From the NCBI RefSeq assembly GCF_963675165.1, contig NC_087382.1, positions 6,868,315 to 6,932,314 of the forward strand: a stretch of DNA of 64,000 nucleotides. Direction: 5' to 3'. Below, piece after piece: positions 2,009-52,830 of the stretch. Within the stretch, counting starts at the first letter, position 1. Each line of letters opens with the position of its first letter. The position numbers and the translations under genes are program-made. Source of the DNA: Halichondria panicea (lineage: Eukaryota > Porifera > Demospongiae > Suberitida > Halichondriidae). The notes below the pieces were generated by a model, which saw only the letters and a list, made by a program, of their open reading frames with translations, was not told the DNA's origin and ran no database searches.

Positions 2009-3960
2009 TATTACTTGTACGTCCATTGCAACCGTACAGCAGGCACTTACGGCAGTGATGCGCACGCACGCACACATAGATCTATCCCTGCTATCCCCGT
2101 ACCAAGTCATAACAATGTTACACCAGACCGCATATCCGATTATTGCAACTTACTATTCCATTTCCCCATTGCAGTCTGGATACTTCTTCACAACATATGG
2201 GTTAGGTTTGTCACAAACTTGATCACCCAAGGTTTGAATGATCCTGGTCCTAGTTGACATCCAATATCTTGTCGTGTAGAATTTCGGAAAGGGAACTGCT
2301 ACCCGAGTTGATTGTTTGAGTTACTATATTAAACACTGGGCGCTTTATAGCTATGCATATAGCTGCATGTCTCCATCATCTGTGCTAAGCGCATTTCCAT
2401 CATTTCCATCGATCAGTTCGTCTTCAAACTTTTTATCCTTTCTCTTGCAAGAAGCTACATACTTCATCCACTTCGAAGCGAGATATCGATGTTCTAGTCA
2501 CTCTAGGAGTAGCCTTAACTTTTCACTCCACTGAGCACATACCTTCCTTCATAATTATCTGCCTCATACCAAGGGCCCCATGATTTTTAATAGTCCTCAA
2601 AACGTTAGCAGACACGTCTATATAGCTACTGTGAGTTATACAGCCTCAACTATATATAGCGCATAAAATCGAAAAATCCATGCCCAGCAAAATCTGTACG
2701 TATACAAATGTAAGACGCGTATGTACTTGAGGTAGGTTTGCAACTGGGACCAGAGGAGGTACGGCTAATGAGTTACTGCATTCCTGCAGCATGACAGGAT
2801 GTAACACCCACATTTACCTGGAGGAGGTGTGGCCTCGCGTCATAATTTATCATCAAGTTTCACGGAGGAGTTGTGAGTGCTAGCTAAAAGACTACAAACG
2901 ATCATAGTACTCCACAGTTCCACAGTAGTTATAAATAATGCTATCCTGTGACATAAGAAGACATAAGAAAATGAATAGCATTGTCATAGGAGCTATAAAC
3001 TTATGCGCTAATGTAACACTGATACTAAGATAGATAGACTAGTAGAAATGCCGAGACAAAATAGCGCTGACAGTGCATAAAATATCTGCTGAGTCATCAC
3101 AAATATCATGTGGGCGTGACATCCTGTCATGCTGCAGGAATGCAATACGGGAATAACTCATTAGCAAAAGTCCTCTGGTGAGTGAGTACACACTATTACA
3201 CACGAGTTGTCCAGAGACTGGACTTCGCAATAGAAGGAAGATGTTGACTGTCGTCCATAAGTATATCCGCTCCATAAGTATATCCGCCCTGTCAAAGCAG
3301 TAGTATACTGCCACCAGAGCAAACAAAGCTTCATATACTCTCAACCACAATATACAGGTATTCGCTGCAATCAGCTGAAATAGCAGCTTTGGCGTTAGAG
3401 TCAATCTGTATATGAACGTAAGCAATGTGTATAAGCAATGTGTATATGAACGTTATGCTTGCATTATTATACATACTATGCGGCCATGGCTGGCGATTAC
3501 GTTTAATTAAGCAGTACATTAGCTATAAGCCTGTGTGTGTATTAGCTATGAGTGTGAATGAGGGGGTTGTACATGCATGTCATTTGACAATGACACACAC
3601 CATAATTATGTCCCCAAGCACCAACAAAAAAACATTTGTGTTTGAGAGGAACAACAAGCTGTACAAGTAAGAGTGCAAGTGGCAGACAATCAACACCTGG
3701 TTTTGTTTCTAAAAATAGAACTGCCCATATTCATTTAGCCAATCGGATTGGAACTAGAGCATTTTAGGAATATAAAAAGTCGCTGTAACTCACTGTCTTC
3801 TCGAGGGATCTTTTGCACACACTACCTGTACCAGTCTCAGCCCGGCTCTACCGGCTCACTCTAACATCTCTCAATGTCAACGCAGGTTGTCGTGATTAGG
3901 GTATGGGGTATTATGAGATCTTGAAAAGCACTTGTGTTTTAATCTTGGTCAAGTTCACTC
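2009..3960. other. Intergenic stretch, no gene recognised
   Basis: No gene is supported. It holds the second copy of the dispersed repeat (3,290-3,475) and a short direct duplication at about 3,256-3,292. Confidence 0.45.
3290..3475. repeat. Dispersed repeat, copy 2
   Basis: Counterpart of 720-930 in the same orientation. It shares the CTGCCACCAGAG word, the ATCAGCTGAAATAGC block and the final ATGCTTGCATTAT block. Confidence 0.5.
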
Positions 3961-4502
3961 TTTAGACACTAGTTGATAAGATCTACATGGGAAGGAAGTA
4001 CATGAGAAGTACATGGGAAAAGTGCCTCAGAGCAGGTATACTATGGGACTTAGTGTACCTGCAAATTTACTTAGTATACCTAGTATTCCGTTGTCAGTAT
4101 TGTAGTCAAGCAGTTTGCGCATGCGCACTAGTATCTAAATGAGTTAGATACTGTTTTGTCGGTGTCCATGTACCCTCGCTACGCTCGGGATACTAAATCA
4201 GTGCCTTTGGGCTTCTAAATCCCATAGACACCTCCAAAACAGTGTCTAACTATTATTTAGACACTAGTTGATAAGATCTACATGGGAAGTACATGGGAAA
4301 AGTGCCTCAGAGCAGGTATACTATGGGACTTAGTATACCTGCAAATTTACTAGTATTCCGTTGTCAAGTAATTGTATTGTAGTCAAGCGGTTTACTAGAC
4401 GCTGTTTTGTCGGTGTCCTCCATGTGATTTAGAAGCCCTCAGCCACTTTAGTACCCGTGCCTTTGGGCCCATAGACACCTCCAAAACAGTGTCTAACTAT
4501 TA
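3961..4502. repeat. Two-copy tandem repeat with internal inverted repeat
   Basis: Copy 1 spans about 3,961-4,255 and copy 2 about 4,256-4,502. Both begin TTTAGACACTAGTTGATAAG and end with CCTCCAAAACAGTGTCTAAC. Within each copy the end block is roughly inverted against an internal block (GATACTGTTTTGTCGGTGTC in copy 1), so each unit can fold back like a MITE. No protein frame is present. Confidence 0.75.
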
Positions 4503-5049
4503 TGTAGTGCCCAAGGGTGGTAGAGATAGTCCGATTGATTGTACTGCAAACAATCTTATCTTATGTATCTTCATTTACCCCTTGTGTTTGCTATAGATGT
4601 ACCAAACAGAACTTAACTTCCCAAAGGCGGAAGAGGCAGTGAGGAGAAAGCAGTTACTAATCTTGCCTTCGTAATACTACTTATTATTATATCCTTTGCT
4701 ATTCAGGTTAGCGAAACCCCTGCGACACCTAGAAAGGTAAGTATAGCTTCATTGAGAGACTTGATTCAGAGACAATTCAGTACCGTTCCTTTGTAAATAC
4801 ATGTTCTTCCTTTAGGAATCGGCTATTGTGTTACTGTGAACCAAACTGACTTCGATGTTGCAGTTAGCAATAAGAACAAACTTTTTTTTTCCAACTTTCA
4901 AAATTATACTTTCTTTCTATCAGACAGTAAAGATGATCACCGCACAACACAATTCACTGCACAACACAATGGCGAAGTCAAACTAAAGTGAGTTAATTGC
5001 TGATAGGCATTCTGGCAAACAAGATTCTTACTCTTGTAGTATATCTCTT
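4503..5049. other. Intergenic stretch, no gene recognised
   Basis: No gene signal is seen. Several GTAAGT-like words occur (for example about 4,737) but I could not connect them to coding exons. Confidence 0.35.
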
Positions 5050-5164
5050 GTTGGTTAAGAGTCGTCGTAGTAGTTTAACGACTTTGTTGTCCTTCCAGGA
5101 GATGCCCGTCACTTTTCTCTTCTGGAATGTCTTGGACTCACCCCTGTGTAAAGGTAAAGGCAAA

Positions 5165-5210
5165 TCAGTGTGTGGTGTGTGTGGTGTGTGGTGTGTGCAT
5201 TTCGTGCGCG

Positions 5211-5246
<36 letters not shown>

Positions 5247-5310
5247 TACATGTATTACATGTGTGTGGGTATAATTATGTCACACATGTGTTGTGTGTGT
5301 GTTGTAGGTG
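5165..5310. repeat. (TG)n-rich microsatellite
   Basis: A TG/GTG-rich tract with a pure (TG)n core at about 5,216-5,246. It lies inside the last intron of the piggyBac remnant read on the minus strand. Confidence 0.9.
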
Positions 5311-6163
5311 AGTTAGTAAAATTAACTGTTTACCTTTGTTTGAGATACTCCTGTCCTTCCGAGCCGTCCCGCACCCATAGATGCCATCCTCTTCAAGCAG
5401 TCGAAGTAGACATGGTGGTTCTTTCCCCTTCAACCCCTTCAACTCGCCAACGTCCTCACCACATGTTCCCCGAGACCACATGTTCCCCGAGACCAACCTG
5501 ACGGCTATCCTTCTTCCCCGTGCTATCTCCCAGTACCCACACTTTGATCCCACGCTTGATTGGCTTCATAGGAGCGGACCGACCCTGAAATTTGATCATT
5601 GCCTTGTCCACAGCAACATTCTTTGATGGATTGTACAACTGCAGACTGAGGTGATCAATTAGAAGGCGGACTTTACCTAGCCTATCAAACGTGGGACTTC
5701 CTCTTTGAGCGAGGTGTTGATTGTTTACAAAGTGCAGGTACCGAGAGATTTCCCTGAAGCGCTACCGAGGAATCTTCATCGCGATGGGGGCATAGTGAGT
5801 GAGAGGGTCTCTGCTCCAGTAATCGTCAAACGATGGTAAGTGAACTACACCATACAAAAACCCCAAAAAGCTTTCAATTCTTCTGTATCGATGGTTCTCC
5901 ATGCCTCGTACTTTTCGTCTCCCCTGGCATATCTGTTGGTTTCCTTCACAATAGGTCTCCGTTGAAGAAGAGTTGAAATATTTGGAGTTGAAATATTTGG
6001 AGTGGGCAATGGGCCAGTCTGAGAGGTGAAGGTGTTGATTGTGGTGTTGATTGTGACGCTTGTGAGATTCTCGGACCAATTGCGTAAGATCTGTTTTTAA
6101 AAGAACTATATATTATATGCGCTCAACAGAATTAAACATTTTTATTATAATTACCTGGAATGT

Positions 6164-10772: not shown

Positions 10773-11559
10773 CTTTCTTTGATGTTGAAGTACATTTTTA
10801 CTTCAAGATTGAAGCCAGCTACTCGAGTGTTGTGTCAGCCTGTCAGTATACTGTTGAAGTTTATCTAAATTCACAATTCTGTTTCCTTCTAGACATTTGT
10901 GACATTTGTGACAGTGCCAATGAAAACGGACCTTAACGCGAAATTAAGGTAGACATGAAAAACATAGGCAAAAAAATTTTTTTTCCACAGGTGCTAACTT
11001 CAACCTTTCCTCTACCTACCTGTGAAAATTTGGGTCTCTACGAAGCTTCAGGTCAAGCGCCGACGTTGAAGAAACTCACCAAACGTTCATTTGTTACTAT
11101 GAAATTTACTGCCCTGGGAATTTCCCTATTATTGGTCATTATTTTTAACAAATTAAAGATGACAACTTGTACAAGACTATTTCATCAGCCCAGTACTTAC
11201 AATCATCAAGAGGAGCCAGGTATATTATAGCTCCACTTTTTAACAAACATAATTAACAGAAATAGATTAGAAAGAGCAGCTATCTAGCTAGCTAGCTTGG
11301 CGTAGATCCACTCTTGTTTCTTTAGATGTATGTATCCCGTGCCCATAAACACTCCATAACAACCTACAGATAAGTAGTAAGTTAAGATAGACACAATATC
11401 AATGTTCTAGCCAATAGACTAGTGTTCCTCCGACACTTACCACCACCTGGGGGATAAACAGTTTCCTGGGCCCTCCATGATGTGATCACCTATCCCATCA
11501 GGCCTGTTACTACTAAGCACAATGGCAGTGATACCAGTACTAAATTAAAGGAGGAAAGC

Positions 11560-12436
11560 TATGGGGCGCCGTTTGTCTCAAAACTCCTAGGAAATATGAC
11601 CAGTGTAAAATTTTGAGGTTATATATAATTATACTGACAGTCTACATATATAAATAGGTGGTGAAGTATATATACTGACAGTGTACATTTATAAGTAGGG
11701 GTGTAGTATATATAGAGATAGGCATTATATATACTGACCATCTACATTTATAAATACAGAGAGGCATTATATATACTGACGGTGTACACTTATGAATAGA
11801 GCATCAAATATAATACTGAGAATCAACATTTTAAATAGAGTGGTGTTATATATACCGATCAACTACATTTATATAAGTGTGCCACGCTTATAAACAGAGA
11901 GGTGACATATATATACCGACCTACTACATTTATATAACATATATATACCGACGGACTACATTTATATAAGTGTGCCACACTTATAAATAGAGAGGTGACA
12001 TATATATACCGACCTACTACATTTATATAAGTGTGCCACACTTATAAATAGAGAGGTGACATATATACACTGACCTACTACATTTATAAGTGTACCGGGC
12101 CACGCCGCTTATAACTCTGACAGAGAGGGATCATTACCCATTCTATAAGTATAACATCACATGATTGTAGGCGTGCCATGTGCATATATAGTGAGAGCCA
12201 TATAGCCACTTGAAAAGAGACTTAGTTAGGTGAATCAGATGGCCAACATATCTGTGAATGTTGGCACACTCTCCACTGCATTAGCTGCTGCACTACAGCA
12301 AGCTGTTGGTACCAATCAGCAAAGTGTAACACCTCGACCTCAGGCTCAAGCACAAGTACAGAGTCAGCCAGGACCCAGCCTGAGCAATAGTCAGGGACCA
12401 AGTACAAGTGCAAGTGTAGGGTGAGTGGCAGTTAGT
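11560..12436 (+). repeat. Left terminal inverted repeat of transposon A
   Basis: It is the reverse complement of 24,970-26,325. It comprises the TATGGGGCGCC tip, a unique arm, the ~62-bp palindromic repeat array, a short spacer with CATATATAGTGAGAGCC, the leader exon (ATG at 12,239) and its splice donor. Similarity stops shortly after GTGAGTGGCAGT. It is shorter than the right repeat because its array has fewer copies. Confidence 0.85.
11640..12125. repeat. Palindromic ~62-bp minisatellite in left TIR of A
   Basis: Units contain TACATTTATATAAGTGTGCC followed by ACACTTATA and a TATATATACCGAC or TATATACTGAC word. Outer units are diverged and of varied length. Inner units (about 11,865-12,100) are near-identical, and each carries a near-perfect palindrome of the type TAAGTGTGGCACACTTA. 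I count roughly eight units. They sit directly upstream of the leader exon and could act as promoter or transposase-binding sites; that role is inference. Confidence 0.8.
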
Positions 12437-14913
12437 TTAATATGTAGGTGGGAGCTAGCTATGGAATTCGGAAGAGTCAAAAACAGTACTGTTTTTTGTT
12501 TGTTTAGACATGCCTTGTCAGTGTTGCCTTCATTTCTGAAGAGAAGAAAGGGTAACTCTACCCTCCCGAGAAAGCGCAAAAAAACGTTGCAAACATGGGA
12601 CAGAGACATCGTTTGCCTCCCTAAAGTGAAATCAGCAGATATGCATATCGCCTACCCAAGGGGAAAATATCGTGAACAGCTAGGGAAGAATGGGTTGATT
12701 GGAAAGGTACGGCTCAACTCAAATATGAGCATGCAAGATGCAAGAAGTCGAGCGAAATTCGCTCTGTGTTTCAGCAGCCGATGAAGGATCAACGTGACTT
12801 TCCTTACATTTACTTACAGTCAACAGGTTGTGGAAGTCGCTCGCTAACCATCCCATCCTTGTCGGCATCGTTTGAATGGACAGTGCAGCAGGTAGTGAAG
12901 ATCGGTGGAACCAAAGGAAACACATATATAATGGCACAGACTGAGTTGTTTACACCATTTGAGGTGAGCTACATGTTACTGAGTGCTAATCAAAGTCTAG
13001 TGTAAACATTTCAACAGCATGTCATTACATTTTTATAACGTGTTACCATTTCACACAGAGTGATCATGAGGATGACGATCATTCAGATGCAGAAATATCT
13101 TCAGATGAAGCTGAAAAAGTTTTCTCAAAGAAAGCTTCCTCGAAGAAAGCTTCCTCAAAGAAAGTTGAAAACGAATCTCCTGCCGTTAGTACATCTTTGA
13201 GTTCTGCTGAAAGTAGTTACCAGTAAGTTATATGTGTATAATTATTTTGTCAATAAAATAATTTTTGCAATTAGGAATTATGTTGACGTTATTGACCTCA
13301 CCACTGATGAATTACCAAACATGGAAAGTGATGACTCTGAATTAGATGATCTTCCTGTTGTTCCCATTTCAATGGATTCTCGGGCCATTAACAAGTAAGG
13401 TTTATATGGGGTGATTCTCAGTGATTTATCAGTTGGTCCATAGGATGAAGAGAGCACCAGACATGGTGGTTGCCAAACATGCAATGATACAGCACCAGCG
13501 AAAGGTCATCCAAGCTAAAGATGAGGAAGATGAGGAAGATACGCAATCTGTGTACATACGACGAAAATTACTCTATTCTGATTCTGATGCCTTCAAAGCC
13601 TTTTCTCAGCCTTCTTTTAATGTCTCTAAAATGTTGAAGGTGACATTCATTGGAGAGGGAGCTGTGGATGACGGGGGACCACGCAGGGAGTTTTTTTCCA
13701 TCCTAATGAGAGACACATTTGCTAAATCTGGATTATTTTGTGGATCACCTGAAAATGTTCTTCCAATCTATAGTATTCAGGGTGTTGCCGACAATCACTT
13801 CTATATCATTGGGAAAATGATATCTACAAGCATTGTCCAAGGTGGTCAGCCACCTTTGTGCTTTTCTCGAGCAGCAGCAGATTTCATTGTGTTTGATAAA
13901 GTTATCAGCACACCTTGTTTAGAGGATATCCCTGATTACGAGATTCGTGAACATTTGAAAAGAGTAAGTGATATATTTAAAGGCTGACTCTAATTAATGC
14001 GCTCTCTAATTATAATGTGTAGTGCAATTTAGCAAACTTCCAAAGTTGTATTTGCACTCCAAAATAGAGTATTGAGTATTGTACAACAGCTTCATTGAAA
14101 GGGTCATTAGTGATTACTTACATTATTAGGAGTGTAGGGAACTTAGCATTAAAAATGGCACGAAAGGTTGGTCCAAACAAATATTAGGCCACACCCACTC
14201 CTGAACTATGTCAGAAGCGCCAAATATGTGAGTGTAACTGTATAATTTTTTCAGCTGCAGAAATGTGACACCACTGAAGAGTTACAAGAAATGCTTCAAT
14301 CAGAACATTTCGAGTTCATTTTTGAGTGTGGCTATTCGAAATTGGTATCTTCTGTTGATATCACCTGTAAAGAGGAAATAATTAAATGCATATGGCTGAG
14401 CTACAACAGCTACGAAAAGGTATTAGAGAAACGTTGCAGATGGAGCTCCCCATATGCATGTATCCAAACGAGGTGCATTCCTTGTTGGTGCCGTCGTCCT
14501 CACTGAAGATCACTACACATTTCTTTCTGGATGAAGTAATAATTGATTACTCCGATCATGGATCTAATAAGCGCACTTTTGAAGAAGCTGTCATTCTCCA
14601 TTGGTCAGATTACATCATTGATTTACCTGGTAAGTGTTACAAACTAGTCAAACGAGTTCATTTTTTATTTTCCAGGACGAAATATCACACTTCAAGACGT
14701 GCTAAGATTTATGACTGGATCGACGTGTTTACCAGCAGTTGGGTTGAGAATCCCCCGTCAATTTCTTTTACTGATGCTGACCAGCTGCCTACAGTTTCCA
14801 CCTGTTCTTTGACCTTAACGTTCCCACGATCATGTTCTAAAATGTCAACTGACAATTTCCAACAAATGATGGACCTGTGTATTCTAGGATCATGCGGATT
14901 TGGACAGGTTTAG
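12239..14913 (+). pseudogene. HECT-type E3 ubiquitin ligase of transposon A (HECT1), frameshifted
   Basis: Exons by splice sites and frame: 12,239-12,420 (leader, MANISVNVGTLSTALAAAL), 12,508-12,963, 13,059-13,222, 13,275-13,394, 13,444-13,963, 14,255-14,629 and 14,676-14,913. Domains in order are the Q/P-rich leader, an N-terminal domain opening WDRDIVCLPK (also found in HECT2), an acidic and lysine-repeat linker (FSKKASSKKASSKK), a SUMO-interacting motif VDVIDLTTDE, and a HECT domain. HECT landmarks are GEGAVDDGGPRREFF, NHFYIIGKMISTSIVQGG and the C-lobe STCSLTLTFP, whose Cys matches the ubiquitin-accepting cysteine. Three one-frame slips break it: near 12,755 (consistent with five extra bases), near 14,385, and at a C-run near 14,757. 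So this copy is probably dead. The stop is about 150 bases (insert removed) from the convergent integrase stop at 22,305. HECT ligases transfer ubiquitin through a thioester; a role in transposition is inference. Confidence 0.75.
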
Positions 14914-14989
14914 AACTTAATGACTTTTGAATTATTCATGCGGATTTAGAACTTGAGAATTATTCATGCTGATTTGTATGGCGGTAGAT

Positions 14990-15500
14990 TAGTGTCAAAA
15001 TTATGAGGTGTTTTTTCAGCAAGGGGGTTATTCTACAGAGGGTGTCAAAATTATATGGGGTGTCTTTTCAGCAAGGGGGTTATTCTACAGAGGGTATCAA
15101 AATTATATGGGGTGTCTTTTCAGCAAGGGATTATTCTACAGAGGGTGTCAAAATTATATGGGTGTCTTTTTAGCAAAGGGTTATTCTACAGACAGTGTCA
15201 AAATTCAGTGTATGGGATGTCTACTCTGTGTGTGTCAAAATTATAATGGATTGTCTTTCCAGCAAGGGGGGTTATTCTACAGACTGTCAAAATCAGTTAT
15301 ATGGGGTGTTTCAGCAAGGGGGTTGTTCTACAGGTGTCTTTTCAGCAAGGGGGGTTATTCTACAGACAGTCAGGTGTAGAATTAAGAGGGGTATTTTTCC
15401 AACAAGGTCGTTGACTGTTATTCTAGTGTCAAAAGCATGAGGAGAGTTAGTTGGAGCGTGGCCCAACTTGATGGAGGGTGTATTTTTCAGCAAGGGTCTG
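14990..15500 (+). repeat. Left TIR minisatellite of element B
   Basis: About nine units of roughly 45-55 bases carry GTGTCAAAATTATATGGGGT, TCTTTTCAGCAAGGG and GGTTATTCTACAGA words. The last units (15,370-15,500) are diverged. It is the inverted counterpart of 21,742-22,200. Open frames across it only reflect the repeat. Confidence 0.85.
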
Positions 15501-15516
15501 CCATGCATTGCATGCT

Positions 15517-15600
15517 AGCCTCGATTCCAGGCCTTGAATCGAGGCTAATGCATTGCTCATTCAGCCTCTTCAAAGCGGCCTGGATTCGAGGCTTTTAAAT
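15517..15600. repeat. Small hairpin at inner edge of the left B repeat
   Basis: TAGCCTCGATTCCAGG is followed by CCTTGAATCGAGGCTA, forming a 32-base hairpin. A third related block, GGCCTGGATTCGAGGC, follows at about 15,577. No function is evident. Confidence 0.55.
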
Positions 15601-15660
15601 TATGGGAACTGAGTAATTTTTGAGAGGGCGTGGTCTCAATTACTTTATTAATGATCAAGC

Positions 15661-17207
15661 ATGAGTTGTGACTGGATTGTAGACAGCTTGGTAGCACTTA
15701 TCTCCGATATGAAGGAGGGAAGAGTAGTAACAAGAGATATAGTGGATGGCTACAAGTGGAGAATTGAACTTATGTGCTCAGATTTAATGGCAAAGGGCAA
15801 AGGAAGCTATTTCTGGCGAATTATGTACTTCCGAGTGTAGTACTCTTGATTTACTGAACAAGGCCTACAAGGAGATGGATACATTGCTAAATAAGTTGTT
15901 AAGTAATGGAGGAGGTTCTAACGCACAATTTCAAGCACCTTTGATGTTGTCTGGTGTAGTTGGACGACCAGCGTATGTTATTCCTGAAGAGCAACTTCAA
16001 TGTTTAATTGAATCTCGTTTCACAGTTCCTCAAATCAGCAAACTATTAGGTGTATCTGTATCCACAGTTCGTCGACGTATGTCATCCCTAAATCTTTCCA
16101 TCCGCTGTACATATTCACAAATATCAGACGAAGAGTTGGACAGTGTTGTTGGAGGTGTACAACAACAGTACCCAAACTGGGGTAACCGACAGATGTACGG
16201 TTACCTTGTGTCACGTGGAATCAGAGTGCAAATGAATCGAGTTCGGGAATGTCAGAGAAGAATTGACCCACAAGGATGTGTCTTGAGAAGGCTGAGAAAC
16301 TTAAGGAGACGAGTGTATTCAGTTCAAGGTCCACAACATCTTTGGCATATAGACGGGCACCACAAGCTAATCAGGTATGGCACCATGTTTTTCATTATTA
16401 TGATATCAATGATTAATTAATTTAGGTGGAAGCTTGTGGTTCACGGTGCTATTGATGGGTACAGCAGATTAATTGTGTTTCTCAAATGTGCTGACAACAA
16501 CACTTCTGAAACTGTGCTGTCCAATTTCACAGATGCAGTTCAGTTGCATGGAGTGCCTAGCAGAGTACGCAGCGATAGAGGTGGCGAGAATGTACTTGTA
16601 CACGAGTACATGGTGGCACATCGTGGACCAAATAGAGCAAGCTTTATTGCAGGGCGAAGCGTACATAACCAGCGTATTGAACGGTTATGGCGTGATGTCT
16701 ACAGTGCTTGCATTGTTGGGTATTACTGTTTATTTTCACACATGGAGGACATAGGTATCTTAGATGTTGACAACTCTGTTCATCTATTCTGTTTGCATTA
16801 CGTATTTCTTTCAAGAATTAATCAGAGTCTACATGACTTCACAGCTGCTTGGAACAATCATCCTCTTTCATCAGTCAGAAATGCAAGCCCAAAGCAACTT
16901 TGGATAAGTGGATCACACCCCCAAGACATTGATGAACAGGTATGCAAATAACAGTTGTTGATTAATTATATCTCTGGTCTCTATTTAGATCCACAACAGC
17001 GACTACGGTATTGATTGGGATGGACCTCTTCCTGTTGGCAGTAACGAGAGCTCAATAGTTGTTGATCCACCACAACAGCCTCTTTGCTCTATGGAATATG
17101 AAGAATTATCTTCTGTTGTACACCCCCTTGCACAGAGTTATGACCATGGCATGGATTTCTATATGGACGCTGTTGAATACACCTACAGTAAAATTAACAG
17201 TTGCTAA
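15661..17207 (+). pseudogene. IS3/retroviral-type DDE integrase of element B (INT1)
   Basis: An ATG at 15,661 opens MSCDWIVDSLVALISDMKEG. A one-base slip near 15,795-15,800 moves the frame to EAISGELCTSECSTLDLLNK. From there the gene reads through with two introns of 51 and 49 bases (16,375-16,425 and 16,940-16,988) to the TAA at 17,205-17,207. Next come a helix-turn-helix (ISKLLGVSVSTVRRRM) and the rve core with all three acidic residues: [16 protein letters not shown] and [12 protein letters not shown]. It is about 40% like INT2 by eye in the core. The enzyme family cuts and joins element ends to target DNA. Only the N-terminal slip argues against function; if translation starts at 15,875, the catalytic part is whole. 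Confidence 0.75.
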
Positions 17208-17365
17208 GATTTAATAATTATGTCACTTCTGTTTCCATAAATAATCTCATGAATAAGTAATTTTGTGTCCATAAATATCTCTTGAATTAGTATATACTCC
17301 AGGAGAGATGAAAACTCAAAACAAAAAAATAATGATGATTGTGAAGGGTATTCTTGAAATTAAAA
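17208..17365. other. Spacer between convergent INT1 and HECT2 stops
   Basis: A 158-base AT-rich spacer with a direct near-repeat (TTCCATAAATAATCTC and GTCCATAAATATCTC). It must hold the 3' ends of both convergent transcripts, but no certain poly(A) signal stands out. Confidence 0.5.
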
Positions 17366-20300
17366 TCATGCCAGTCCCATGCCATCGTTTCCACGCAGAG
17401 ACAGCATTAGTTTGCTCCTGAACACATCATAAGATGAATGTCTACACGGGAGACGAAGACGGAGACTGCACGTACTGGCAGTTGCTAGTTCAGCATCAGT
17501 GAAGGTCAATGTCGGTACAGGCTGGAAACCAAGTGGGGGCTCCCTGTCAGCTCCAGTGAAAAAGATGAGAACATCGTCAAGAGTCACTTTGTCCCCATTC
17601 TCTGTTGTTGATGTTCCATCTATAGTAAAATGAATACCTTTGCATGATAGTGATCGAATTAGGCATTACACTTATATTAATGTGCAACTACATAGGAAAA
17701 TGAATGTAGTAAAAAATGTACAATACAGAGGAGGAAAAACACAATTAACCTTATGCACTTAATTATGACTTTTTAATGAACACGCATTCCGCAGTCGCGG
17801 TTCAATTGCACTTTGCTTCTGCAGTTTAAGTGAAATCACAATAATCATGTGCTTTCATAAGAAACAGGTGAAGAGAATGATTTTGGTACAGCCATGAACC
17901 TAATCCTGCTGCAACCAGGAACAGATACAGCTAGTCAGGCTCAGTACAGTCGGACATACCAGTAACTTTTTTTTACAGTATCTATGGTAACGTGAAAAAA
18001 ACTTTAGGAATGTCACATGAATGATGACGCATGTCCAATCTCCTCCTCTGCCATTATACAGTAAATTCAAATAAGAATACATTGCATCAAGAGTTTACGA
18101 ACGTAGGCATATACTGTACATCAGATGTATGTGGAGAGTAACGTGACTTCCTGTATCTGTCACAAGCTTGGAATTTGCACACTGACCAATCCAAGTGTGG
18201 GTGATGTAATCTATCAACCCATCCAAGTGTGGGTGATGTAATCTACTTTCTTGATAGATTACATCACCCACACTTGGATTGGTCAGTGTGCAAATTCCAA
18301 GCTTGTGACAGATACAGGAAGTCACGTTACTCTCCGCATACATCTGATGTACAGTATGCCTACGTTCGATACTCTCTCTCTATCATAAACTCTTGATTGC
18401 ATGAAATTAATCATTAAAGTGAAACCTTTGATTATTCGGACACCTTGGTTCTGGATAATCGAATGGATAAACCACGCCTTGATCCCACATAATGGACAAA
18501 CAGCAGAGCCACATGGTTGCCAGCGCATGCGCAGAAGATAAGCAGGCCTGTCTCCATAGTAATGCGCATGTGCAATAAAAGGACAAGCCAAAAATAAAAT
18601 TGCCAAGCCGGATAATGGAGGTTCAGAATAATGGACGTTCTACTGTATTACATTTAGTTTCTTCGTGTCCAACTTCTTCTGCGTGTACATCATATATAAT
18701 GGGAATCACTAATAAATACCACAGTATGATATTCTTTGGCCTAGGTGAACACCAAAAAAGAACACTGCCTTATACATGTATGTCAAATTAACTAGTACCT
18801 TCACATTCTTCCAAAAAATCCATGAAGAAGATGTACGCAGCCTCTTCTTTGGCTTTTCTATTTGAATCAGTTAGTGAGAACACACACGGAAACTTCTTAA
18901 AGAAGTCTACAAAAACAATAACAATATGAATGCATGACATATAATATTAATTAACGCACCCTTTGACAATACGCTTGGTTGCTGACAGAACAAAGGCTGC
19001 ATCAAATCAGAGTAGTTTTGAACATACTTGAGGACTTCACAAGTGTGTAACCCCTCTGTGAATTGATCTAGTTCCGCTTTGATCTTAATCAAGGAATGGT
19101 AGTCTCTCAATGCGTTCTTGATCCCATCCTTGTCAGCCATGGAGGCAAGGCACAATGCCTTACTATAGCCGGTGTCGCACACGAGTCCAACTTTTTCGTC
19201 ATCTTCGAATATTAACCTCAGTTTTTCATCCGTATCTGCATCATTGATCAGAAGGGGTACACCACATTAAAAGCCATGCAGATATCTAGGGTGTATAATT
19301 ATTTGCTTTGTGCGTATATTTGCTAATAAATCACATGGTGTGAATGAGTGTACCACCAACTAGGGGGGTCATGCTCCCCCTGCTTGGGCAAATTTTTTTC
19401 ATCTTGGGATTGCCTTTGCAAATGTTATAATTTTTATTTGTCCATAATTATACTTAGTCTTACCGGAAATTACCCGCTACAAGGTCATTTTAAGGGGGGG
19501 GGGGGGGGGGGGGATTGGGCTAGGGGGCTCCCTCTCCTGTGTATCATAATGATGACTTACTTGACTTACTTCTCTCAAAAGGGTTCGGACCTGTTCATTT
19601 GGAACAGCTGTATCATCCCTTACTCCCAGGTAAGTCCCCGTGCAGATGTACCGGTACACTGAAGGGTGAAAAGCAGGTATTCCAGAACCCCCTTGTACAA
19701 TACTCATAGCGGTGATTTTGCCAATGTTCTTGAAGTCCTCATTCTGAACACAATTTGTTATTAAATGTATGCACACCCATACATAATGCGCATTTAATTT
19801 ACCTGCAGAGCAACAACATTCTTCAGCGGAAAACATTGGCCACTCTCATTGCTGGTGCAGTACTTTTCAGTTACCCCCTTTGCAAATAGACGATAGAATT
19901 CTCTCAGTGGCCCACCAGTGTCTACTGCTGCCTCACTCACAAAACTGACCTGTATAGTACCCATCCGTAATCAATGTACATTTATGATAATAACTTTCTT
20001 AAACTTACTCTGAGAAGATTGGACGTATTGAATCGTTTCTTCTTTGCTTCTCTGATCCCATCTTCCACTACAAAGCCACGTCGCACATCAATACTAGTAC
20101 GGGAAGCAACCTCCCAGTCCTCACTGTTGACATCAGGGATGTGAATACCACACTTCGCCCTCAAGGCCAACACAATATGGCTCAAGCAGTTCAGTTCTCT
20201 AAATAAGTATAGCATTATCTCACAGTACATTATCTCACAGTACTATACACACATAATCACAGCTGGTTATACCTTGGTTGACAAAAGTCGTCCATACTGT

Positions 20301-21627
20301 TTTTGACAGCAAGTAAGATATCATTTTCTAGGGTCAAGTCTACCAAGTGGGATGATTGAGTATGGTCTTGTACCTAAACATTTTTTGGGGATGTTATCCT
20401 CATGCTATAAATTGGAGCATTGCTTACTTGTACACCACTGTTGTTAGGAGTAATTGGGGAAAAAGCTGGCGGTAGTGGAGATTCTGGTGGTGAGCTCAGG
20501 TAACTAAATTCTTCTTCTTCAGAGAATGCTTGAGGAAGGGGAGAATCCAACCTTAGCGAACAAATTAAACATTAAGAACTTGATAAAATGAACTGCACCT
20601 TTTACAAGTATCGAGATGTTGTTTAAGTTGACACAATGGAATGCTTTGATCACATTTTAGGCATATTTCAGTCGGTGCAATTCCCTACAGAGCAGTACTC
20701 ACACGAAGCACTACCAACCAAATAAAACTTACCAGATCTTTATTCTCCAATACACGTTTCAAACATAATTTCTGCTGTAGAGGACGGATAAACACTTTAG
20801 CACTACCTACAACATTCTTTAGGTACTGAACAGTATAGCCTCCACTTTGCGGTGGAATTACCCCGAGCTGACGATTGTTGTTGGGTAAGGTGCGTAACAG
20901 TTCATACCCCCCTGCATTCACAAGCTTTGGATATGCATTAAGAAGTTCATCGTGGAACTCAAATGCCTCGCCATATTCAAATAGACAGATTTTCTTTGGT
21001 CCAAGCCCAGCATTGATGAGGTCTGCTTTTTCCATTGGAGTTGGAGGAATTGACTGATCCACATTTGCCAGACAAATAAATTCGTGCTCCCACATACTCA
21101 GCTTTACTTTTTTCGATTTTTTTTTACCTGTTCCTGTTTTTTGTCCATATTCTGACATCCACGGAGGACGGCGAGTAGGCAGTGATAGACCACGTCGGCT
21201 TGACATGAACTGTGGCACATTACAGGTACCAGAGCGAGAGCTTCCTGGAAGCTGCTGATCCTCTCGAGCTCTCGGCCGCGGAGGTTGCCGATCAGTACCA
21301 GAGCGAGAGCTTCCTGGAAGCTGCTGATCCTCTTGAGCTCTCGGCCGGGGTGGTTGCCGATCAGTAACATTTCCTGTATGCAGAACAATTATTTTTATAT
21401 CACTACTACTACTGTGCTTTCTTTAATGGAACCCTTCCCCCCCCACACTCGTACTCTCCTAGACTACTTTCACCTACTTTCCCTGACTCTACTTTCACCC
21501 ACTCTCCCTGACTCTTTTACCACTGACCCCCACTGTTCGAAAGCTTACTTGAGCTACTGCTTTGTGGGCTCATCATGGACAAAGCGTTCTCGAGGAGACT
21601 GCGAGCAGCTCTTACAGAATCGTCCAT
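17366..21627 (-). CDS. HECT-type E3 ubiquitin ligase of element B (HECT2)
   Basis: Eleven exons, in order: 21,627-21,549, 21,373-20,733, 20,684-20,599, 20,551-20,428, 20,373-20,273, 20,198-20,009, 19,949-19,803, 19,743-19,570, 19,235-18,960, 18,906-18,799, 17,619-17,366 (about 727 residues). The chosen start gives MDDSVRAARSLLENALSMM. Order of parts: a 23-residue unit repeated twice (DRQPPRPRA...), an N-terminal domain (WEHEFICLANVDQSIPPT, then GGYELLRTLPNNN), a zinc-finger-like exon with C-x2-C-x11-H-x3-C spacing (CLKCDQSIPLCQLKQHLDTC), an acidic/proline linker, and a HECT domain. HECT landmarks are EAAVDTGGPLREFYRLF, KIKAELDQFTEGL and ASTCSLRLRLP, the last with the acceptor cysteine. All joints keep phase except exon 8 to 9. 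That joint needs a weak donor seven bases inside, or hides a one-base slip. Introns are about 47-60 bases apart from three larger ones. The largest intron (18,798-17,620) holds two MITEs. No stop codon interrupts it. Confidence 0.8.
18098..18368. mobile_element. Foldback MITE in HECT2 intron
   Basis: The left arm starts CGAACGTAGGCATA and the right arm ends with its reverse complement. The arms (about 125 bases) match almost perfectly through AGTAACGTGACTTCCTG and CCAAGTGTGGGTGATGTAAT. The left arm repeats its inner ATCCAAGTGTGGGTGATG block once more. An outer pair, GCATCAAGAGTTTA and TAAACTCTTGATTGCA, is also inverted. Confidence 0.85.
18417..18645. mobile_element. pogo/Tigger-like MITE in HECT2 intron
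   Basis: Left end AAGTGAAACCTTTGATTATT and right end (reverse complement) CAGTAGAACGTCCATTATTC are imperfect inverted repeats, with TA on both sides (18,415-18,416 and 18,646-18,647). Both ends repeat a second GATTAT/GATAAT-type word. CAGT-initiated ends with (A/G)AACC plus TA are the pattern I know for pogo-group elements. There is no coding capacity. Confidence 0.65.
19494..19513. repeat. Run of 20 G in HECT2 intron
   Basis: An uninterrupted 20-G tract (poly-C in the transcript) between exons 8 and 9 of HECT2. It could form a G-quadruplex on the plus strand and is prone to length error in assembly. Confidence 0.8.
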
Positions 21628-21741
21628 CTCTTCTTCTTCACCACGTGGACTTTCATCTACATGTGTGACCTTTAACCCTGTGACCTTTAACCCTGAATAC
21701 CCTTTGCAGAAAATCCTTGCAGTAGTTTCTAAGTAGCACCC

Positions 21742-22200
21742 TGTCCTGGAAAAAGACACCCCTCATAATTTTAATACTGTAGAATATACCCCTTGCTGAA
21801 AAATTAAGACACCCCATATAGTTTTGACACTGTCTGTAGAATAATCCCTTGCTGAAAAGACACCTCATACAATTTTTTAACACTATACCCTGTGTGTAGA
21901 ATAACCCCCCTTGTTGAAAAGACAACCATATAATTTTGACACTGTCTGTAGAATAACCCCCTTGCTGAAAAGACACCCCATATAATTTTGACACTGTCTG
22001 TAGAATAACCCCCTTGCTGAAAAGACACCCATATAATTTTGACACTGTCTGTAGAATAACTCTCTTGCTGAAAAGACACCCATATAATTTTGACACTGTC
22101 TGTAGAATAACCCTCTTGCTGAAAAGACATCCCATATAATTTTGACACTGTCTGTAGAATAACCGTCTTGCTGAAAAGATACCCCCTCATAATTTGACAC
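21742..22200 (-). repeat. Right TIR minisatellite of element B
   Basis: About nine units of 48-52 bases, the inverted counterpart of 14,990-15,500. Plus-strand words are CCATATAATTTTGACACTGT and AGAATAACCCCCTTGCTG. The inner units (21,930-22,160) are nearly identical to each other, more so than in the left array. Confidence 0.85.
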
Positions 22201-22304
22201 TGTTGTACCGCCATAGATTTGGACAGTTCAGAATTGAATGTATTGTTACAATCGTTTCGTTAACTTCATGCAATTCTATTATTATCATTAATTAAACATA
22301 ATAA

Positions 22305-23460
22305 TTAAGTTCCACAGTCATCACAACCTACAAGTAGGTGGCTACCAATTAACTGAATAGCACTTGTATACAACTGTTTGCCATTGTCAGGGTTTTCTTC
22401 AAGTACATCAATTGATGACAGACTATGCATGAGTGCTTCGCATGGTGTGAACACATCAGAAGGTATATTAACGTGGTTATCCACCAGTGAAGTTAGGTAC
22501 GACGTAGCATCCAATGCCGCGTGTGTCACACTTCTCTCATCAGATTTGTGCAGCAACCCTTCTATGTATAGTTGATAAGGTGATCGGTTTCCTTCAGTTG
22601 AAAGTTTATGGTGATTCCAGCTTTCTCTGAACTCAAGTAAATTACGATTAATGCGTGGTAAAAAGATGAAGTGTAAACAGAACAGATCCACTTTATTCAA
22701 GGGGTTGAGCAATGCTTCCTGTTCTAAGCAACAAAACAAGTCACCAAACATACTCAAAACACAACGATGAACATCCCTCCACAACCTTTCAACTCGCTCA
22801 TTATGAACAGAACTACCAGTTATTACACACGAAGTATCGTTTCCATGAGACAGGATCACATATAGCCAAATGTCAATGTTTTCACCTCCGTGATCGGTCC
22901 GCACCTTTTCCGGTACACCAAAAGCTGCGACTCCTTCATTAAAAGATGCACATGCAGTAGCAGCTTGATTGTTAGTTGAGCATTTAACATAAGCAATTAA
23001 CCGTGAAAAGCCGTCCACCCCAGCGTGAACAACAAAACGCCATTTAATTAATTTATGATTACCATCGATATGCCAAATGGTATTTGGATAGGGAACAGAA
23101 TAAATTCGACGTTTTACGACACTTGATTGGCGAGACACAGTATTCTCATGGTCCACACGATGAATTGAACGTCTTAATCTTTCACGAGTTACCTTTATGT
23201 CTTTACTTGTTAGATGCCCTTGAATTAATACCTCTACCTCTCCATCATTCGGATGCTCACGTTTAATCCCAATGATCAAATTGTCCAAATCACTATCGGA
23301 AATCATACATTTGTCATCAGTAGGTACCCCAGCTTCTGTTAAGCGTCTATACAAGGTTGCTCTTGATATACCCAGTATCTCGGCTATCTTAGTCCAGGAA
23401 AAATTGAATCTCCGTAAAGTTTTAACTTCTTCCAAGTCAATCAATACTTTAGGCCTCCCT
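22305..23460 (-). CDS. IS3/retroviral-type DDE integrase of transposon A (INT2), apparently intact
   Basis: One uninterrupted exon of about 385 residues follows an acceptor (TTTCATTAACAG) ending at 23,461. An upstream in-frame ATG at 23,495 exists, but the acceptor matches the phase of the leader exon in the right TIR (25,179-24,982). So I favour a spliced start giving leader + GGRPKVLIDLEEV. Parts in order are an HTH of resolvase style (SWTKIAEILGISRATLYRRL), then the rve core with D, D and E in WHIDGNHK, RTDHGGEN and NERVERLWRDVH, then a C-terminal tail ending CDDCGT. No stops or slips are seen. It converges on HECT1, with only B inserted between. The family catalyses strand transfer of element ends. 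This is the best candidate for an active transposase in the window, although a LINE now sits in its first intron. Confidence 0.85.
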
Positions 23461-23640
23461 CTGTTAATGAAAAAACCACAGGCATTATTATGCATACTAG
23501 GTTTGTATTAAATATACAATGCAGAGGGTTTTGTTCAATTAATGAGGTCGTTACGTCGTTATTCATAGTGTAATTACATCACATACTATAATAGGTTTCT
23601 GGGTGGTACATTTAGGCCAAACCCCCAAGACTAAAACTAA

Positions 23641-24945
23641 TTTTTTTTTTTTTTTTTATTTAAGAAATTTTTATGCAAAACCAAGGTGTGCATAAGGGTA
23701 GATCAGGTAGCTCAGATGGCTAGTGTGAAGACTTCCCCTGGACAACACAAAAACAGAGAAATAAAACAGGAGCTACGGCTAATTATAATAATTATTACAC
23801 AAAAAGCTACTGAGGTTCGATTTAAATGATGAATCAGAGGAGCTGTTGATAACTTCTGGTGGTAAAGAATTCCATTTTGGTATTACATCCAGAAAAAAGG
23901 AATGTTTGTGGGATGAGGTGCCCACATGTGGTATAAAGAGTATTTGGCTGTGCGGATGACGGGGGGAAGGGGATGGGTGGGGTGAGAAGACAGAGGGAGG
24001 AATACAGGATTTGTTGTTGATGATTTTGAAGCATACTTTAAGTTTTTGGATATTCCTGCGGTCTTTAAGAGATTTGAGTTGGAGTTTGTTAAGTAGAGAA
24101 GTATAGTCAGATTTCCATTCTTTGGTTATGATTTTGCAGGCAAATGATTGGGTGTTCTCCAGTTTCTTGGTGAGTGTTGATTGATGGGGGTCCCATACTG
24201 CGGCGCAGTATTCAAGTTTGGGTAGTACAGTGCTCCTGTAAATTGTATGCTTTGATTGCTGTGATGCATCTTTTAACTTCCTGTGGAGCAATCCCAGTTG
24301 TTGTTTGGATGTCCTCACAGTGTTGGTAATGTGCTCAGACCAGGACAGATTCTTAGAGATGGTGACGCCGAGGTACTTGAAACATTCCACAATGGGGATT
24401 TGCTGGTTTGAAATAGAGAGGGTGAGTGGGATCGCATTCATAGATCTTGTGATGGGTAGAACATTGGTTTTTTTGTTGTTTAGAAGGAGACCATGTTGTA
24501 TAGTCCAGTTGTGAACTGCATTAATATCCTGCTGGAGCTGAGTGAGATCGTTATCTGAAATTACTGGCCTGTAAAGGAGGATGTCATCAGCATATAGGAT
24601 TAGCTTGGTTCCGGGGCAGAGCTTTATTTCATTCAGCGAGTCCATGAATATAATGAACAGTAGGGGTCCCAGAATAGAGCCTTGAGGGACTCCAGACGTT
24701 ACACGGCACGGTGTTGAGGATGCACCTTCCAGGACGACTCTCTGACTTCTGTTTGATAGGTAGTCTGAGAGCCAAGTTAGCAGTGGACCCGAGATACCAT
24801 GTTTTGAGAGTGACTTAATGATCTGATTGTGGGGGACAGAGTCGAATGCTTTACGAATATCAAAGAAAACTGCTCCTACTTGTCTGTTTTTTGATAGTAA
24901 TTGGTGCCAGTCGTTTGTGACAGTCAGTAGTGCATCCTGAGTTTC
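23641..24945 (-). mobile_element. 5'-truncated non-LTR retrotransposon (CR1/L2/Rex-like LINE)
   Basis: It ends in a poly(A) tract on the minus strand (plus-strand T-run at 23,641-23,660). It is truncated at its 5' end near 24,945, as expected for target-primed reverse transcription. It lies inside the first intron of INT2, between the leader exon (24,982) and the integrase exon (23,460), in the same orientation as that gene. No clear target duplication was found. Confidence 0.8.
23779..24938 (-). CDS. LINE reverse transcriptase, partial (5' truncated)
   Basis: An open frame of about 386 residues without its own start. The reverse transcriptase blocks are in order: GAVFFDIRKAFDSVPH (catalytic Asp), GVPQGSILGPLLF, and the active-site LILYADDILLY. 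It ends with the C-terminal IPKWNSLPPEV block typical of CR1/L2-type LINEs. The endonuclease and the N-terminal finger region are missing through 5' truncation. There are no internal stops, so the insertion is fairly young. Confidence 0.85.
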
Positions 24946-24981
24946 TTACCCATGCACGTGCCACCTTAGCTACACTGCCAC

Positions 24982-25179
24982 TCACCCTACACTTCCACTT
25001 GTACTTGCACTTGTACTTGGTCCCTGACTATTGCTCAGGCTGGGTCCTGGCTGACTCTGTACTTGTGCTTGAGCCTGAGGTCGAGGTGTTACACTCTGCT
25101 GATTGGTACCAACAGCTTGCTGTAGTGCAGCAGCTAATGCAGTGGAGAGTGTGCCAACATTCACAGATATGTTGGCCAT
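24982..25179 (-). CDS. Leader exon in right TIR of A (shared 5' exon)
   Basis: An ATG at 25,179 opens the same leader as at 12,239: alanine/glutamine-rich, then PRPQAQAQVQSQPGPS. It ends at the same GG|GTGAGT donor with two bases left over. It differs from the left copy by about four extra residues near its end (STSASTSGSVG against STSASVG), a short-repeat length change. The leftover phase fits the INT2 acceptor at 23,461, so the exon can supply the N-terminus of the integrase. The leader has no recognisable domain; it looks low in complexity and flexible. Confidence 0.7.
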   Translation of the reverse strand: MANISVNVGTLSTALAAALQQAVGTNQQSVTPRPQAQAQVQSQPGPSLSNSQGPSTSASTSGSVG

Positions 25180-25299
25180 CTGATTCACCTAACTAAGTCT
25201 CTTTTCAAGTGGCTATATGGCTCTCACTATGCACATGGCACGCCTACAATCACGTGATGTTATACTTATAGAATGGGTAATGATCCCTCTCTGTCAGAG

Positions 25300-26265
25300 T
25301 TATAAGCGGCGTGGCCCGGTACACTTATAAATGTAGTAGGTCAGTGTATATAATATGTCACCTCTCTATTTATAAGTGTGGCACACTTATATAAATGTAG
25401 TCCGTCGGTATATATATGTCACCTCTCTATTTATAAGTGTGGTACACTTATATAAATGTAGTTCGTCGGTATATATATGTGTCACCTCTCTGTTTATAAG
25501 CGTGGCACACTTATATAAATGTAGTAGGTCGGTATATATATGTTACCTCACTGTTTATAAGTGTGTGGTAAACTTATATAAATGTAGTCCGTCGGTATAT
25601 ATATGTCACCTCTCTGTTTATTTTATAAGCGTGGCACACTTATATAAATGTAGTCCGTCGGTATATATATGTCACCTCTCTGTTTATAAGCGTGGCACAC
25701 TTATATAAATGTAGTCCGTCGGTATATATATGTCACCTCTCTGTTTATAAGCGTGGCACACTTATATAAATGTAGTAGGTCGGTATATATAATAATGTTA
25801 CCTCACTGTTTATAAGTGTGGTAAACATATATAAATGTAGTCCGTCGGTAATATATGTCACCTCTCTGTTTATAAGCGTGGCACACTTATATAAATGTAG
25901 TCCGTCGGTATATATATGTCACCTCTCTATGTCACCTCTCTGTGGCACACTTATATAAATGTAGTAGGTCGGTATATATATGTCACCTCTCTGTTTATAA
26001 GCGTGGCACACTTATATAAATGTAGTTGATCGGTATATATAACACCACTCTATTTAAAATGTTGATTCTCAGATTATATTTGATGCTCTATTTATAAGTG
26101 TACACCGTCAGTATATATAATGCCTCTCTGTATTTATAAATGTAGATGGTCAGTATATATAATGCCTATCTAATTATACTACACCCCTACTTATAAATGT
26201 ACACTGTCAGTATATATACTTCACCACCTATTTATATATGTAGACTGTCAGTATAATTATATATA
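25300..26265. repeat. Palindromic ~62-bp minisatellite in right TIR of A
   Basis: About eleven near-identical units plus diverged outer ones. Each has TATAAATGTAGTCCGTCGG or the GTAGTAGGTCGG variant, TATATATATGTCACCTCTCT, and the palindrome TAA(G/A)(T/C)GTGGCACACTTA. The array is roughly twice as long as its left counterpart, so it changes length independently at the two ends. Confidence 0.85.
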
Positions 26266-26822
26266 ACCTCAAAATTTTACACTGGTCATATTTCCTAGGA
26301 GTTTTGAGACAAACGGCGCCCCATAGAAAGCGTCTTATAAGGCAGTTGGATCAAGCCTTAGATCGATACAGACTACCTATAATAGATCACGACAGAGACA
26401 CTTTCTGTAGGCTCCATACAAGTGAGGGATCTTTTATAAGACTGATACATTACACAGTACAAATTACACAGTACAAGCTTATAATAAGACATGAGAGCTT
26501 ACAATTTGAGCGACGGGAGTCTTTGTCTCTTTATTTCTTCGAAGATCCTTGCCAAGCAATCCAGCTACATAGCTAGTCCTAGATGTCTTCTCTAGAACAT
26601 TGCTTTATGAGTATACGGAAGTGAACTTCAATTATTCAACGTTTGAGCATCATTTACTCAAGAGGGCGTCCCTTCGTAGCGTTCCCTCGAACATATCTCC
26701 GGAAAGAAAGTAGCTCGATCTTGGTATCATTTTGAAGCTTACAGGACGCTCTATCCGATTCAACAATAAAAACTGATTCGAAAATGTCCGCGTTAAGGTC
26801 CGTTTTCATTGGCACTGTCACA

Positions 26823-52799: not shown

Positions 52800-52830
<31 letters not shown>

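Follow-up and report, generated by a model that had tools for sequence, protein, structure and literature searches.

IS3EU transposons are described, in the available text of PMC10045372, as elements with TA..TA ends, usually 6-bp target duplications, and an IS3-like DDE transposase without HHCC, and the available text of PMC12730594 gives TAYGG..CCRTA as the ends of fungal members. The available texts of the relevant papers report transposon-borne enzymes for the removal of ubiquitin/SUMO (PMC2836005) and of DNA methylation (PMC12730594), and place an alpha-kinase gene opposite to the transposase gene in fungal IS3EU relatives with TET/JBP (PMC12730594). In Ginger1, the tag-removing OTU/Ulp1 is fused to the transposase, the ends are TGTNR, and the duplications are 4 bp; for these domains, a connection between transposition and repair by way of ubiquitin/SUMO was suggested by Bao et al. 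2010 (PMC2836005, available text). The word HECT does not occur in the available texts of PMC10045372 and PMC12730594, and no HECT-carrying IS3EU was found in the literature searched; Repbase and most subscription journals were outside its scope, and a prior description is possible.

In a 64,000-nucleotide stretch of the Halichondria panicea genome (the window), we analyzed two nested elements that share TA..TA ends, 6-bp duplications, and a DDE transposase without HHCC with IS3EU (including GingerRoot; Repbase) and carry a HECT gene. As judged from their ends and duplications, they are IS3EU-type cut-and-paste transposons, and they agree in ends, duplications, and transposase with the published description (PMC10045372, available text) of IS3EU, the group whose Repbase entries a preliminary description had recommended for comparison. 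They resemble Ginger1 in combining an integrase-like transposase with an enzyme of the ubiquitin/SUMO system, but the Ginger1 enzyme is a fused tag remover, whereas here it is a predicted tag-adding ligase encoded by a separate gene. With host HECT ligases (RSP5, AREL1, E6AP, and HUWE1), the element proteins have in common the HECT domain, the catalytic cysteine, and, in several of them, a GFG-type C-terminus, and they are very distant from them in sequence.

The outer element (positions 11560-26325) was delimited by its terminal repeats and the 6-bp duplication GAAAGC (left copy at 11554-11559, right copy at 26326-26331). Its terminal sequence, TATGGGGCGCCGTT, is present at either end, beginning with TATGGGG. 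The left terminal inverted repeat (TIR; 11560..12415, + strand) includes the first HECT exon, and the right TIR (25003..26325, − strand) contains an expanded subterminal repeat of ∼63 bp; the two match at 97-99% and differ in repeat number. The inner element (14977-22215) was delimited in the same way by its terminal repeats and the duplication GATTTG (14971-14976 and 22216-22221). Its terminal sequence, TATGGCGGTA, is likewise present at either end, with TATGGCG termini, and its TIRs (∼14977-15222 and 21971-22215; 88% identity) consist mostly of subterminal repeats of ∼50 bp. The inner element lies between the integrase and HECT genes of the outer one. It interrupts no gene, its site being the spacer that directly follows the stop codon of the outer HECT gene on the 3′ side. 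The empty site is provided by L043, another member of the outer family located on a different contig: at the insertion point it is uninterrupted, with a single GATTTG and 120/120 identical flanking bases. The inner family is likewise represented by another copy, L042 (99.3% identity over 7,245 aligned positions), which is flanked by a different 6-bp duplication, ACAGCC. The TIRs, the duplications, and the empty site rule out a host gene origin of these HECT copies.

Each element was found to contain one integrase and one HECT gene facing each other, and the preliminary description was correct on these points as well as on the TIRs and 6-bp duplications. The inner integrase gene (15788..17207, + strand) has two short introns identified by eye (∼16374-16427 and ∼16939-16987). 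The main exon of the outer integrase gene (22305..23460, − strand) translates into 388 amino acids, with a putative acceptor just before it; a 5′-truncated LINE (RVT_1; ∼23641-24941, − strand), foreign to the element, lies in the presumed intron. Pfam profile searches matched both integrases to PF24764 (1.1e-69 for 16424-16948 of the inner one), with an additional weaker match to rve (PF00665) and N-terminal HTH matches, and listed no zinc-domain match. In line with the D, D, E core noted earlier, D136, D193, and E228 of the outer integrase, which we read as the catalytic DD35E triad, are invariant across an alignment of 12 sequences.

The inner HECT gene (17366..21371, − strand) comprises ten modelled exons, every one of which is open, and encodes 707 amino acids (first exon excluded) that include a C2HC finger, an (I/V)DLT plus UIM-like motif, and the HECT domain, with the catalytic Cys codon at ∼17468-17470 (− strand). 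The exons of the outer HECT gene that follow exon 1 (12508..14913, + strand) end in GFGQV, with the catalytic Cys codon at ∼14803-14805 (+ strand). In comparison with L039, a related element, the outer gene loses the reading frame near 12.75 and 14.75 kb, which makes this a broken copy; when it was searched piecewise, the last stretch scored 23.8 bits, just below the Pfam cutoff of 23.9, and the N-lobe stretch 12.5 bits. Against the same cutoff, the spliced inner protein scored 44.9 bits, that of L039 44.7 bits, and that of the sponge Iophon 28.7 bits, and a PDB sequence search gave best E values of 6.7e-6 (L039) and 3.5e-4 (Iophon). In the L039 and inner proteins, the part toward the N-terminus gave no confident Pfam match. 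TC is found at the catalytic site in 10/10 aligned families (chosen for the availability of both integrase and HECT sequences, with the outer family represented by L043); in the C5 family, the site reads HVC by eye. HECT ligases generally have a Phe four residues from the C-terminus. This Phe is present in the C-termini GFGQV and GFGMC, replaced by Met in the inner GMGLA, and placed one residue earlier in GFGGGP of L039. The identification of these genes as HECT genes is firm; their ligase activity and substrate are inferred.

Of the 95 integrase loci in the H. panicea genome, 70 are paired by coordinates with a convergent HECT match no more than 12 kb away, versus a mean of 0.57 and a maximum of 4 convergent pairs in 300 runs of random placement (spanning 19 contigs, with the size of C20 assumed). 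The pairing is not due to chance, as the occurrence of the same pair in two elements had already led the preliminary description to argue. Seven of the 70 pairs depend only on weak HECT matches (E of ∼1e-5 to 7e-5, with in-frame stops), and in five the nearest HECT match is more than 5 kb away. Reading of further loci, with 8 of the 95 set aside, added four convergent pairs (74/95). Convergent order is the rule and is not universal: four loci have a HECT match on the same strand ∼3 kb downstream by coordinates (the one of these that was read is degenerate), one (C5) is divergent, and one (C6:6772803) has HECT matches on the same strand just upstream of the integrase. No HECT gene was found within ∼3.5-6 kb on both sides at C1:16825977, C6:2978436, C7:5253412, and C16:3891753, or near C1:3145433 and C6:2972042, which were inspected chiefly on the 3′ side. 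HECT is present in 10 of 13 integrase families sampled from this genome. Conversely, a convergent integrase is missing from some HECT matches of the transposon type: 6/27 (N-lobe), 8/35 (C-lobe), and 6/30 (N-terminal).

In six complete elements from four families, the integrase and HECT genes are both enclosed by repeats that are flanked by 6-bp duplications. Duplications were identified by script (GAAAGC, GATTTG, ACAGCC, and CATATA) or by eye (CTGGTA, CCTTTC, and CTTAGC). The expectation that the pair recurs between TATGG...CCATA ends held for the enclosure of both genes and for the duplications, but not for all ends: the outer and inner families have TAYGG..CCRTA-type ends like fungal IS3EU, L041/L044 have TATGGCA (seen at one end), and L039 and the C5 family have TATGAGG, which conforms to TA..TA yet not to TAYGG. 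TIR elements lacking HECT, named beforehand as the case that would speak against a conserved partnership, were represented by the one repeat-bounded example found, the 1.8-kb C14. Since its ends match those of the HECT-carrying C5 element and its integrase is truncated, with the N-terminus missing, we read C14 as a C5 deletion derivative and not as the integrase-only counterexample that it had first seemed to be.

What the ligase might do is suggested by the linker that separates its N-terminal domain from the HECT domain, in which pattern matches to SUMO-interacting motifs (SIMs), fingers, and UIMs point to SUMO- and ubiquitin-binding-like motifs in several HECT proteins. A combination of SIM-like motifs with a ubiquitin ligase domain resembles that in RNF4, a SUMO-targeted ubiquitin ligase; here, the SIM-like motifs are pattern matches and occur in some families. 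To our knowledge, the known SUMO-targeted ubiquitin ligases are of the RING type. Strict SIM pattern matches were obtained in 5/9 families, exactly the five in which the motif had been noticed beforehand, so that their linker position is a post hoc finding. A prediction set in advance for four further families failed, with 0/4 strict matches and look-alikes only. For SIM type a, there were four matches on the opposite strand versus two on the coding strand, with a total of 6 versus 2.96 in shuffles. A SIM-like IIVIDSE in C5 was spotted later by eye.

In our reading, the integrase acts at TATG...CATA ends, leaving 6-bp duplications, and this clade carries a gene for a HECT ubiquitin ligase as a long-retained second gene. 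Through the linker motifs, the ligase would recognize proteins at the element that already bear SUMO or ubiquitin, candidates being host silencing or heterochromatin factors, and would add ubiquitin, leading to their removal and allowing the element to be expressed and to move. In C. elegans, SUMO reportedly favors silent chromatin as well as silencing directed by small RNAs (PMC8131105 and PMC8131101, available texts). The element-encoded ligase probably acts on host silencing factors, and we lean, by a little, toward the full version in which it reads their SUMO or ubiquitin marks and tags them for removal. If true, a conserved ubiquitin ligase that adds the tag would give a DNA transposon a counter-weapon unlike the tag- or methylation-removing enzymes, and would account for multicopy integrase-linked HECT genes, possibly annotated as host ligases; the old proposal of a ubiquitin pathway in transposition (PMC2836005, available text) would become directly testable. 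The presence of the pair in many related elements suggests that these transposons have a long history of manipulating protein tagging in the cell.

A further feature links the two proteins in some families. In the outer element, HECT exon 1 (12239..12420, + strand; starting with MANISVNVGTLSTALAAALQQAV, with a GTGAGT donor and predicted splicing) and integrase exon 1 (24986..25179, − strand; end read by eye) are both encoded by the TIRs and specify the same peptide in the same splice phase, the integrase exon being four codons longer. Such a common first exon was found in the outer and L039 families only and was not seen in the inner and L040 sequences read. In outer-type families, the two TIRs would act as matching promoters encoding an identical first exon, and integrase and ligase would begin with the same peptide and may therefore be coexpressed and colocalized. 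We regard as rather unlikely the combination in which a SUMO/ubiquitin-reading IS3EU HECT strips silencing while twin-promoter TIRs and the common N-terminal peptide unite both proteins in one complex. Alternatively, with the shared exon joining both, the ligase may ubiquitinate the element's own integrase or the postcut complex, either so that this is disassembled and repair is called in or so that copy number is kept low. The common peptide, the recurrence of the two-gene partnership, and the repair link proposed for Ginger1 OTU/Ulp1 (Bao et al. 2010) speak for this reading, which is possible though doubtful: the exon is confined as described and may reflect nothing beyond shared promoters, and the linker motifs, if real, indicate modified proteins rather than the integrase.

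That HECT is passive cargo from a single capture, with no role in transposition, would agree with the broken outer copy, with the mobile HECT-less derivative C14, and with the silence of both IS3EU papers, as far as their texts are available, on HECT. However, such cargo would be expected to decay, and HECT with its catalytic cysteine is kept across integrase families that are 33-57% identical to one another; we consider this explanation improbable. The outer and L039 elements are no longer alignable as DNA (no blastn match at 1e-10), but their HECT N-lobe exons are 55% identical, as expected if selection acts on the protein. Across the 10 aligned families, integrase divergence is also correlated with HECT divergence (Mantel r = 0.35, P = 0.01). 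The analysis as a whole shows the anatomy, the recurrence, and the retention of the catalytic cysteine and HECT domain, and it lends good support to the earlier view of the ligase as a conserved component of the element. Chance proximity of host HECT genes to integrases, for which one might cite that 68/95 exon-level PF00632 matches lie more than 12 kb from any convergent integrase, is already refuted by the random-placement control and the six repeat-bounded elements and deserves practically no credence.

The pair also occurs outside H. panicea, with integrase and HECT on one contig in Iophon. Protein database searches returned 125 relatives for one Iophon HECT query versus 2,724 for its integrase, a deficit that introns and the word-based search may explain in part, and a search of IMG/VR returned no relatives. 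Among the 120 HECT and 120 integrase matches listed, seven HECT matches lie on a contig of exactly the same size as that of an integrase match, versus a mean of 1.14 (maximum, 4) in a shifted-size control, and among contigs of >20 kb in these lists there were three equal-size pairs versus 0.01 expected.

The preliminary description had placed two nested transposons here, each within 6-bp target duplications, and this was borne out: the outer element spans 11560-26325 (duplication GAAAGC), and the inner element, inserted between the two genes of the outer one, spans 14977-22215 (duplication GATTTG). Elsewhere in the genome, the outer family has another copy (L043; 6,501 bp, duplication CATATA) that lacks the inner insertion and retains the intact site with a single GATTTG. 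For the inner family, another copy (L042; 7,210 bp, duplication ACAGCC) shares 99.3% identity with the inner element, so this family moved recently. Six elements from four families are complete, with two genes, both terminal repeats, and duplications: these four, one of a separate family (L039), and one on contig C5. Some carry broken genes; the outer HECT gene loses its frame at two places and is therefore broken, and the L043 integrase is split over several frames. The outer element has HECT on the plus strand and integrase on the minus strand, the inner element has integrase on plus and HECT on minus, and in both the 3′ ends of the two genes face one another. The convergent order proposed earlier holds for these two elements but not throughout, as the genes are divergent in the C5 element (by-eye reading of C5:4161583-4167991) and in tandem at C4:2654278, where HECT is degenerate. 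An element on C14 (1.8 kb, duplication CTTAGC) has a truncated integrase and no HECT. A HECT intron of the inner element contains a MITE-like 107-bp inverted-repeat hairpin (18111-18357), and an ORF at 477-830 of another locus, L041, is much like that of the hairpin region. A 5′-truncated LINE with reverse transcriptase and one poly-T end (23641-24941) sits in the presumed outer integrase intron, and a long compound tandem repeat, CA-rich with strong strand skew, lies at 51462-53181.

The integrase core corresponds to Pfam PF24764 (1.7e-76 for the outer element), with weak likeness to retroviral integrase and an N-terminal helix-turn-helix; all 12 sequences aligned share D136, D193, and E228. 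The spliced inner HECT gene has an open frame of 707 residues without the first exon and a HECT match of 44.9 bits (L039 family, 700 residues and 44.7 bits); PDB sequence matches of the HECT proteins were weak (RSP5, AREL1, E6AP, HUWE1, and others). On the suggested comparison with IS3EU, ends, duplications, and transposase agree with the IS3EU/GingerRoot descriptions in PMC10045372 and PMC12730594. In fungi, IS3EU elements bearing TET/JBP likewise have a second gene, for an alpha-kinase, oriented opposite to their transposase (PMC12730594), a layout paralleling that of HECT and integrase here; Ginger1 transposases have OTU or Ulp1 domains (PMC2836005). Nothing in the literature listings and passages searched describes a HECT gene within IS3EU-type elements.

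To quantify the pairing, the genome (131 Mb, 39 contigs) was searched for integrases (118 and 107 matches); pooling all matches of the first search with 12 additional places from the second gave 95 loci, which were compared by coordinates with the results of four HECT searches, one using PF00632 and the others three exon proteins. A convergent HECT match on the opposite strand lay within 12 kb of 70 of the 95 loci, both window elements included, and within 5 kb of 65, against means of 0.57 and 0.29 pairs in 300 runs of random placement; in 7 of the 70 pairs the HECT side consists solely of weak matches to the C-lobe, interrupted by in-frame stops. Reading of loci added four convergent pairs (L019, L032, L050, and L053), giving 74/95. 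Because copies are not independent, families weigh more than loci. Single linkage at 70% identity gave 16 integrase families, 13 from this genome, and HECT is present in 10 of these 13; it is doubtful in the L029 family (N-lobe match 9.2 kb off) and the L049/L051 family (weak matches in relatives alone) and was not found in the L017 family. By the random placements, the claimed pairing exceeds chance. Transposon-type HECT matches had no convergent integrase within 12 kb in 20 of 92 cases (6/27, 8/35, and 6/30); the same was true of 68 of 95 exon-level PF00632 matches in this genome, and most of these 68 probably belong to host HECT genes.

Two long open integrase genes, L018 (C6:2972042-2973055, plus strand) and L017 (C6:2978436-2979560, minus strand), lie ~5 kb apart; neither inverted repeats nor HECT were found in the 10.5 kb read, and the genes are possibly domesticated. 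One IS3EU family, including L044 (C9:2872900-2882899) and L041, is arranged as inverted pairs ~8-28 kb across by coordinates, as also on C13, C16, C8, and C1, with a single end seen, TATGGCACGCC. The L044 arms are near-identical (99.8% over 1,975 bp), each with integrase and the last HECT exon, and such arms are apparently giant terminal repeats duplicating the transposase.

No DNA match between the outer element and L039 reached 1e-10, yet their HECT N-lobe exons share 55% protein identity. Among families with both gene sequences, the catalytic TC of HECT is invariant (10/10 aligned), and integrase and HECT distances are correlated in the same 10 (r 0.35, p 0.01). Both terminal repeats of the outer family code for MANISVNVGTLSTALAAALQQAV..., with a GTGAGT donor after it. 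The left-repeat exon could be spliced into HECT in phase; the right-repeat exon is four codons longer in the same phase, with a plausible acceptor ahead of the integrase exon. Both L039 repeats have a homologous MAEG...VNVGVLSSALAV.IQQA exon, and we infer that repeat-encoded first exons may be spliced to both genes.

In the HECT proteins, a linker separates the HECT domain from an N-terminal region to which no Pfam family could be confidently assigned. A finger, CxxC-x(10-13)-H-x(3,4)-C, occurred in five of nine families scanned (0.375 expected from shuffles of all ORFs, both strands); a UBZ profile matched the inner finger at E 0.75 only. SUMO-interacting motifs (SIMs) of type b, which we take to be hydrophobic-hydrophobic-D-L-T, were found in three families (0.49 expected), type a gave six matches (2.96 expected; two on the coding and four on the opposite strand), and the ubiquitin-interacting pattern gave two (0.31 expected). 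All five coding-strand SIM matches, each noticed before the patterns were set, lie inside the linker; SIMs predicted ahead of reading four further families had 0/4 strict matches and look-alikes only. By eye, IIVIDSES and a stretch resembling CUE were recognized in the C5 HECT protein. As a lead, these motifs suggest that element HECT proteins may read SUMO or ubiquitin.

In the main rival proposal, the ligase would regulate the integrase or the complex that remains after the cut. In the reading that we favor, the integrase would move the element, and the ligase, made from the opposite terminal repeat, would most likely ubiquitinate proteins near the element that already carry SUMO or ubiquitin. 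Host silencing factors would be the likeliest targets, because SUMO is reported to act in small-RNA-linked silencing (PMC8131105 and PMC8131101).

A prokaryote genome collection held four integrase relatives, all on contigs in sponge-symbiont MAGs of Cycloclasticus and Methylococcales (L045-L048; LWTN01000118/139/127 and QPIL01000069) and presumably host DNA, which suggests that the window itself comes from a sponge. On L047, which belongs to the MAG of a Methylococcales symbiont in the sponge Iophon, integrase (3337-4807, plus strand) and HECT (4999-6111, minus strand; ORF match 28.7 bits) are convergent. L048 stops inside the integrase, L045 has no HECT in the ~1 kb 3′ of it, and L046 has retroelement ORFs downstream. 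These MAG contigs contain animal-type transposon genes, and one of the integrases is annotated as a symbiont hypothetical protein. Among the matches listed for the Iophon queries in the protein-database comparison (best 120 of 125 for HECT and best 120 of 2,724 for integrase), seven contig sizes were identical (139890, 351236, 86176, 8928, 3721, 3695, and 2451), against a mean of 1.14 and a maximum of 4 with shifted sizes; above 20 kb there were three coincidences against 0.01. The same HECT matches compared with another integrase list (119 of 120 sizes) gave one coincidence among the matches listed. Indirectly, this points to the HECT-integrase pair in several further assemblies.
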